A program made the translations under genes and the position numbers. Shown piece by piece: positions 6,260-6,636 of a stretch of DNA of 64,000 bases. The notes beneath the pieces were generated by a model that saw only the letters and a program-made list of their open reading frames with translations, was not told the DNA's origin and searched no databases. Each line of letters starts with the position of its first letter. The first letter of the stretch is position 1. The stretch is from Octadecabacter ascidiaceicola (GTDB lineage Bacteria > Pseudomonadota > Alphaproteobacteria > Rhodobacterales > Rhodobacteraceae): positions 496,001-560,000 of the forward strand of contig NZ_FXYD01000003.1 in the NCBI RefSeq assembly GCF_900185015.1, read 5' to 3'.

Positions 6260-6338
6260 CCCTCGTCATTTTTTGTTTGGTGATCCCAAGATGTTGTGGT
6301 TTGCTATCACCATCAGAAACAGAAAAGGAGGTGTACCA

Positions 6339-6395
6339 GTGTCTAGAAAGATAGTGGAAGCGTGTGTCGGGACAACTGTGGGGGGCCGTGTCTAG
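6339..6395 (+). CDS. 18-codon micro-ORF with strong ribosome binding site
   Basis: GTG at 6339 lies seven bases after AGGAGG (6326-6331) and reads MSRKIVEACVGTTVGGRV followed by TAG. I do not recognise the peptide. Its Shine-Dalgarno is perfectly complementary to ACACCTCCT at 6502-6510. It may be a leader peptide, a microprotein or a chance reading frame on a small RNA. Confidence 0.3.
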   Translation: MSRKIVEACVGTTVGGRV

Positions 6396-6519
6396 GGCAG
6401 CCCTTGGGCACGATTTACCGCAGGTGAGACGCCGTTGAAGGTCGCGCAATTTACTCCGAAAACCGCACAACACTTTTCGGATTGCGCTTCTCTAACCGGT
6501 CACACCTCCTGAACTTTCG

Positions 6520-6547
6520 AAGGGCCGCCTTACCTTGGGCGGCCCTT
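6520..6547 (+). terminator. Rho-independent terminator of the small RNA element
   Basis: AAGGGCCGCC (6520-6529) pairs with GGCGGCCCTT (6538-6547) around an 8-base loop, and the T run continues to 6550. No protein gene ends just upstream, which supports a short independent transcript. Confidence 0.75.
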
Positions 6548-6563
6548 TTTCGTATGCAGATCG

Positions 6564-6606
6564 CGTACACAACCCGTACACAACCTGTACACATCCCGTA
6601 TGTACA
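6564..6606 (+). repeat. 11-bp phased direct repeats before arfB
   Basis: CGTACACAACC at 6564-6574 is repeated exactly at 6575-6585, then as TGTACACATCC (6586-6596) and a shorter CGTATGTACA (6597-6606). The 11-bp period puts all copies on about the same DNA face, 31 bp before the arfB start. A regulator binding array is possible. Confidence 0.55.
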
Positions 6607-6636
6607 TTTTTCGCACCACAGAACGGACGGACCCGC

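Follow-up and report, generated by a model that had tools for sequence, protein, structure and literature searches.

Within the window, a 64,000-nucleotide stretch of the Octadecabacter ascidiaceicola genome, there is at about positions 6306 to 6550 a conserved RNA gene that is apparently its own transcription unit. Comparison with relatives shows a very strong Shine-Dalgarno sequence (SD), a micro-ORF whose length is fixed, and a pair of predicted helices, P1 and P4, to which the segment just before the terminator contributes. We favor, with moderate confidence, the reading that this is a small mRNA or dual-function RNA of about 190 to 240 nt, transcribed on its own, whose start site would be open in the nascent RNA and closed in the complete one. 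The SD, the complementary anti-SD, and the 18-codon ORF that an initial annotation described are real and lie in the sequence where it placed them. Its proposal of a small RNA with a probable micro-ORF and an SD/anti-SD pair able to switch its own translation is supported by conservation in relatives.

The RNA gene and its micro-ORF

The features of the locus are as follows.

6277-6305 (+): promoter-like sequence, recognized by eye, with -35 TTGGTG at 6277-6282, a 17-nt spacer, and -10-like TTTGCT at 6300-6305
6326-6334 (+): Shine-Dalgarno sequence AGGAGGTGT (usual family form AAAGGAGGTGATCC), from the sequence and relatives' rows
6339-6395 (+): 18-codon ORF VSRKIVEACVGTTVGGRV, GTG start and TAG stop, with length and stop kept in relatives
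6346-6350 (+): 5' strand of P4, GAAAG, in codons 3 and 4; pairs with 6514-6518, from covariation
6376-6381 (+): 5' strand of P2; pairs with 6418-6423, 5 of 6 pairs changing on both sides in 25 rows
6389-6410 (+): P3 hairpin, 6389-6397 paired with 6402-6410, which contains the stop codon; 6 of 9 pairs changing on both sides in 25 rows
6443-6488 (+): dispersed palindromic repeat (bulged hairpin 6444-6487) in a variable linker, outside the core RNA
6502-6510 (+): anti-SD ACACCTCCT, whose core CACCTCC (6503-6509) pairs with the SD core (6327-6333) as P1
6514-6518 (+): 3' strand of P4, CTTTC
6519-6549 (+): intrinsic terminator

In the 64-kb window, the SD 9-mer and its exact complement occur at these two places only, where 0.19 occurrences are expected per shuffled window and none of 100 window shuffles held two. 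The folded window RNA is 4.9 standard deviations more stable than its shuffles.

Relatives were compared in several overlapping samples. Counting the window's own genome, 113 of 159 family genomes match a pattern for the SD and start that allows at most two mismatches, and a reversed control gave none among the matches listed. Seventy of these 113 genomes provided the 70 family loci, which became 68 when two loci with a different, MSS-type RNA (L248 and L250) were left out. Row set A1 was picked for an 18-codon ORF and holds 25 of 26 rows (L012 left out). Row set A2 holds 73 rows, 57 of them from the 68 family loci (the other 11 were dropped when a pattern missed their terminator) and 16 others; one truncated row, L256, was left out of the full-RNA and masked folds, for which 72 were used.

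The promoter-like stretch of the window sits at the position where relatives carry TTGAC: 43 of 68 family loci have it at -60 to -40 of the SD, versus 7 of 68 in a control stretch. In other orders, promoter-like sequence upstream is visible by eye. Consensus scans of the window listed neither the promoter nor the terminator of the RNA, and a -35/-10 scan of relatives rose barely above shuffles. Matches to a queuosine-precursor transporter (TIGR00697) and to ArfB (NF006718) flank the window RNA, both on the same strand. A TACACAACCCGTACACAACCTGTACACA-type repeat with six more matching places in the window's own genome occupies 6555-6613, after the terminator and before arfB.

The bulged hairpin at 6444-6487 had been included in the element by the initial annotation. 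Its full form is absent from 72 of 73 A2 rows, similar copies lie elsewhere in genomes G017, G005, and G045, and it has a weak minus-strand match to Rfam BASRCI408. This hairpin is an inserted copy of a dispersed repeat. Such a palindromic repeat interrupts the RNA in a few members of the genus.

The micro-ORF has exactly 18 codons in 62 of 70 family loci and 17 to 26 in the remaining ones. Codon 19 of the 68 loci with the VSR-type peptide is TGA in 32, TAG in 23, TAA in 7, another codon in 6, and TGG in none, so that a stop stands there in 62 of 68. Because ORF length and the codon-19 stop are conserved, the micro-ORF is probably translated. Copies of the MSHG type have 18 codons in 17 of 18 cases, the remaining copy being truncated, and Bradyrhizobium copies have 14 codons in 4 of 4. 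In L248 and L250, which belong to the window's family, an MSS-type RNA of 26 codons replaces the VSR type, and neither the transporter nor ArfB was found adjoining it.

Amino acid constraint on the micro-ORF appears weak. Across 85 ORFs picked for 18 codons (62 of the 70 family loci plus 23 others; 83 distinct), pN/pS is 0.66 for codons 2 to 12, versus 0.82 and 0.94 in the other frames. A plain small mRNA, with the 18-residue peptide as its product and the folds as ordinary autoregulation or by-products, would account for the retention of stop and length while TGA, TAG, and TAA are all used, and also for the conserved peptide pattern VSR..LE.GVGT, in which the serine at codon 2 uses all four TCN codons. 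We nevertheless consider that reading rather unlikely, since the peptides of other orders look unrelated (MSHGSA.., VSHCH.., MSSDF.., and VSYLKRCHLAGIAR), codons 13 to 18 show no amino acid constraint (pN/pS 1.13), and several conserved codons are nearly invariant at third positions.

Helices reaching back to the start site

In A2, 97.3% of P1 cells are paired. The SD side of P1 is invariant, a constancy that was partly chosen because 57 of 73 rows were fetched by the SD-start pattern with at most two mismatches; the anti-SD side was not part of that pattern. The anti-SD side varies, mostly toward G-U and U-G wobbles (49 changed cells keep the pair and 14 break it), and no compensatory change on both sides was found in the 73 rows. 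Among family loci, C[AG][CT]CTCC occurs downstream of the start in 59 of 68, versus 2.4 expected from shuffles. Three of the 25 A1 rows, those of the window and two close relatives, have GTGTACC in place of GTGATCC at the SD and read ACACCTCC at the anti-SD; P1 is therefore longer in those three rows. This is not clean covariation, because four GTGATCC rows also read ACACCTCC. A second partner for the anti-SD, at codons 6 to 11, was rejected as not clearly above shuffles (48 of 73).

The initial annotation saw the anti-SD as exposed between the bulged hairpin and the terminator, and suggested that it might act in trans. Thermodynamic prediction over 72 relatives gives a different picture. In full-length folds, the SD is predicted to be buried in 71 of 72 relatives, and pairing between the anti-SD and the SD region has a mean probability of 0.91. 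The anti-SD is predicted to be unpaired at a mean of only 0.03, rising to 0.23 with the start site masked, in which case it mostly re-pairs inside the RNA, chiefly with codons 2 to 12. Before the anti-SD is made, the SD is predicted to be 0.52 unpaired on average.

The SD in its usual family form is presumably complementary to the 3' tail of 16S rRNA; a 16S 3' end was looked for in the genomes examined and was not found. With an assumed tail, the SD:16S duplex is stronger than SD:anti-SD in 71 of 73 rows (medians of -29.7 versus -16.1 kcal/mol). The window copy is one of the two exceptions, its SD:16S duplex (-19.6) being weaker than its SD:anti-SD duplex (-20.7).

These predictions bear on the idea of a trans-acting anti-SD small RNA, in which the ACCUCC segment would block the SDs of other mRNAs. 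The frequency of the anti-SD motif in the family speaks in favor of such an RNA. However, the SD and anti-SD are predicted to be paired with each other, masked-start folds, in which the anti-SD mostly re-pairs internally, do not favor its being set free to act in trans, and beyond the family the strict motif is about as common as expected by chance (4 of 59 named non-VSR loci versus 3.1 expected). We regard a trans-acting role as improbable, and the same count led us to reject the strict SD/anti-SD pair as a class-wide feature. The count covers 59 of 62 loci; L135, L173, and loci whose sequence was too short were dropped. When wobbles are tolerated, a 7-nt partner of the SD core is present in 39 of the 59 versus 18.7 expected under plain shuffling, an excess that perhaps reflects pyrimidine-rich terminator tails alone. 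An earlier energy test on 52 loci (mean z of -0.95) was set aside as too blunt; of its five family copies, only two reached a z of -2, one of them away from the anti-SD.

Two groups of known RNAs invite comparison here. The CcsR/CCUCC-loop RNAs of Rhodobacter carry CCUCC in hairpin loops and are cotranscribed with a DUF1127 gene. They share the presence of an anti-SD with the RNA described here, which differs in having a single CCUCC, predicted to lie in a long-range helix rather than in hairpin loops, and in having adjoining transporter and ArfB matches rather than a DUF1127 neighbor. SisA-D of Caulobacter crescentus contain a 10-mer with an anti-SD signature and base-pair with targets (PMC12559287). 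They too are small RNAs with such a signature, and the accessible part of that source mentions no ORF for them (PMC12559287).

P4 joins codons 3 and 4 to the stretch immediately preceding the terminator. At the middle pair of this helix, 36 rows have GC, 34 have AU, and 1 has GU, with none broken among 71; the two outer pairs toward codon 4 fail to form in 18 and 26 rows. When the changes are placed on a tree of the transporter protein, 13 fall on each side of the middle pair. The supported branches offer 3 independent pairs, and in most pairings all 3 go in step; because there are only 3 such pairs, the test falls short of significance (sign test, p of 0.25). A duplex-energy swap test on 86 of 91 rows (5 without an anchor were dropped) found nothing, with -5.58 for a row's own partner versus -5.56 for shuffled partners. 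We think that this null result arises because TCTAGA/TCGAGA can pair with every variant, and position-wise counting was used instead. A nested pairing of leader GAAA with CUUUC, which appears in a single-sequence fold, was rejected, as the 3' segment varies with codons 3 and 4 and not with the leader (by eye).

Because their strands run in the order 1-2-1'-2', P1 and P4 would be either a pseudoknot around the GUG start or alternatives to each other. Acting jointly, the two helices would clamp the start codon, possibly as a pseudoknot. Terminator cells are paired at 97.9% in A2, with changes on both sides at 7 of 10 pairs, in rows that had been picked for a parsable terminator; in A1, 8 of 13 terminator pairs change on both sides. 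Overall, 95.1% of cells pair across the 73 rows, versus 45 to 58% in slid controls, which a structure drawn from the same rows tends to beat. None of 500 shuffles, which ignore kinship, reached the observed pairing values.

That the helices covary strongly could suggest a purely structural RNA with an accidental ORF. This is quite improbable, given that ORF length is fixed while the linker varies, that the stop codon is kept while its letters vary, and that the start codon is GTG, ATG, or TTG by group.

The least probable reading is a transcription attenuator of arfB, the ribosome-rescue gene downstream, in which a ribosome halted on the stop codon would release the 3' strand of P3 for pairing with the terminator. 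In its favor, GCCCTT in P3 and AAGGGC in the terminator are complementary in the window (by eye), and in the 70 family loci the transporter lies upstream in 65 and arfB downstream on the same strand in 57. Against it, several relatives have a shorter match between P3 and the terminator (by eye), arfB was not found within 1.3 to 1.5 kb downstream in 11 of 68 VSR-type copies, and neither gene was found in the flanks (up to 1.5 kb) of loci from other families.

Relatives within and beyond the family

By blastn, 26 of 61 genomes, counting that of the window, match the locus; this count takes in at least one genome (G045) that matches the inserted repeat only, as well as some that match the 3' part only. 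A lack of conservation or covariation would, by the initial annotation, have counted against the element; both were observed. A covariance model (R1) built from 73 relatives matches 148 of 159 family genomes at an E value of at most 0.001. Rows for training came from 64 of the 159, and R1 matches 84 of the 95 that gave none. Some of the family matches are weak (e.g., E values of 4.8e-5 and 7.5e-5) and may represent other types or terminators.

In the window, every Rfam family scores below its cut-off. The initial annotation did not recognize the RNA and counted a match to a known Rfam family as evidence against its proposal; there is a full-length match to one, RF01867 (CC2171), at a score far below its cut-off. 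This is the best weak Rfam match at the locus, at 27.7 bits versus a cut-off of 75 and with an E value of 2.6e-4. The window copy aligns to model positions 1 to 159, including the AAGGAGGUG..CCAGUGUCU block. The gathering score of 75 bits, which the window copy does not reach, is exceeded in 5 of 142 class genomes.

RF01867 shares with the window RNA the AAGGAGGUGAUCCAGUGUCU block, the long-range helix that links the first codons past the start to the pre-terminator segment (present in the family as P4), and the terminator. The peptide of the window copy differs, and the Rhodobacteraceae form adds the SD/anti-SD helix and a P2/P3 domain; eight RF01867 copies over the cut-off have ORFs of 21 to 26 codons. 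RF01867 matches 26 of 142 class genomes, including the window's own and one family genome, and in 22 of the 24 non-family genomes its match (E of at most 0.001) coincides in position with that of R1 (E of at most 0.01). R1 itself matches 34 of 142 class genomes at an E value of at most 0.01, namely, two family genomes, 22 at the RF01867 place, two more at full length (G127 and G141), and eight with short matches of 69 to 109 bases that are probably terminators. Shared terminators alone seem to account for L060, L065, and short R1 matches such as G061:C1:1208615-1208688, which inflate raw match counts. The Caulobacter branch of this RNA is Rfam RF01867, which has been catalogued without a function; in the literature searched, CC2171 or RF01867 turned up in two papers. 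Genome G048 has two RF01867 matches, L045 and L064, one a CC2171-like copy and the other a sphingomonad-like MSHGSA copy.

A P4-like helix of 7 to 8 bp is present in 15 of 18 parsed VSHC-type (CC2171-like) copies, with a p value of <0.05 by shuffling in 6 of 18, and one of 7 bp is present in 7 of 10 sphingomonad copies, with a p value of <0.05 in 1 of 10. It is not clear in MSS-type (0 of 10) or Bradyrhizobium (0 of 4) copies.

The exact motif AAGGAGGTGATCCNDTGTC occurs in 44 of 289 class genomes, always at a single place per genome. A motif scan of named genomes found at least 117 stretches, of which 80 are listed. Among these 80 are four from Gemmatimonadetes/Gemmatimonadaceae, one from an actinomycete, one from Prochlorococcus, and three named only as "Proteobacteria"; the others carry the names of groups that we take to be alphaproteobacterial. 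The ORF that follows the motif has 14 to 33 codons in 78 of the 80 matches listed; of the two exceptions, one runs off its contig, and the other, from the actinomycete, has 201 codons. In the four Gemmatimonadota records (L134, L168, L187, and L202), the exact motif precedes an ORF of 20 to 22 codons starting LSS, and a terminator was parsed in one of the four. Related RNAs with the same SD block and a short ORF are present across Alphaproteobacteria and in the four Gemmatimonadota records listed.

Published work touches on these RNAs at several points. In Mesorhizobium huakuii, the CC2171-annotated MH_s33 is listed with a 215-nt sequenced product, and, riboswitches apart, all predicted small RNAs but one had RNA-seq products, according to the accessible part of the source (PMC5596092). 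Two earlier Caulobacter noncoding RNAs are reported to be translated, their names not being given in the accessible part of that source (PMC4117421). A further comparison is rnTrpL of Sinorhizobium meliloti, a trp attenuator and dual-function RNA with a leaderless ORF of 14 residues (PMC10117765). With rnTrpL and its product peTrpL, the RNA described here shares a short ORF on a small alphaproteobacterial RNA, translated there and probably translated here; it differs in that its SD is very strong, that it has its own promoter-like sequence, and that it lacks a run of regulatory codons. The letters of the motif were not found in the literature searched, and the main-text passages covered gave no account of the micro-ORF, of the SD/anti-SD helix, or of relatives in Rhodobacteraceae and other orders.

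Possible gating of translation by the 3' end

We propose that the small mRNA or dual-function RNA favored above would work as follows. The nascent RNA would have a partly open start site and be translatable. Once its last 50 nt are made, the RNA would close on its own start site, and initiation would then stop unless a 30S subunit holds the SD. Nascent RNA could load ribosomes and finished RNA could close on itself, because the SD is predicted to be half open before the anti-SD is made and the SD:16S duplex is the stronger one in 71 of 73 rows. A strong SD would let 30S subunits compete with P1, and output would therefore depend on free ribosomes.

A bolder version, which we consider unlikely, is that the RNA is a class-wide sensor of translation capacity. 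The RNA would carry a near-maximal ligand of the 30S subunit, the complement of the 16S 3' tail, it would close when 30S subunits are scarce, and the output of the micro-ORF or the exposure of the 3' half would report free ribosomes. That the orders keep the SD and the ORF length while they swap the peptide would be expected if translation itself, and not the peptide, were the signal.

An RNA gene retained in most of the family, with relatives through the class and in the four Gemmatimonadota records, has been catalogued only as a narrow Rfam family. It unites a very strong SD, a micro-ORF of set length with a peptide that differs between orders, and helices predicted to close the start. With these features, it would allow a direct test of whether the 3' end of an RNA can gate that RNA's own translation.
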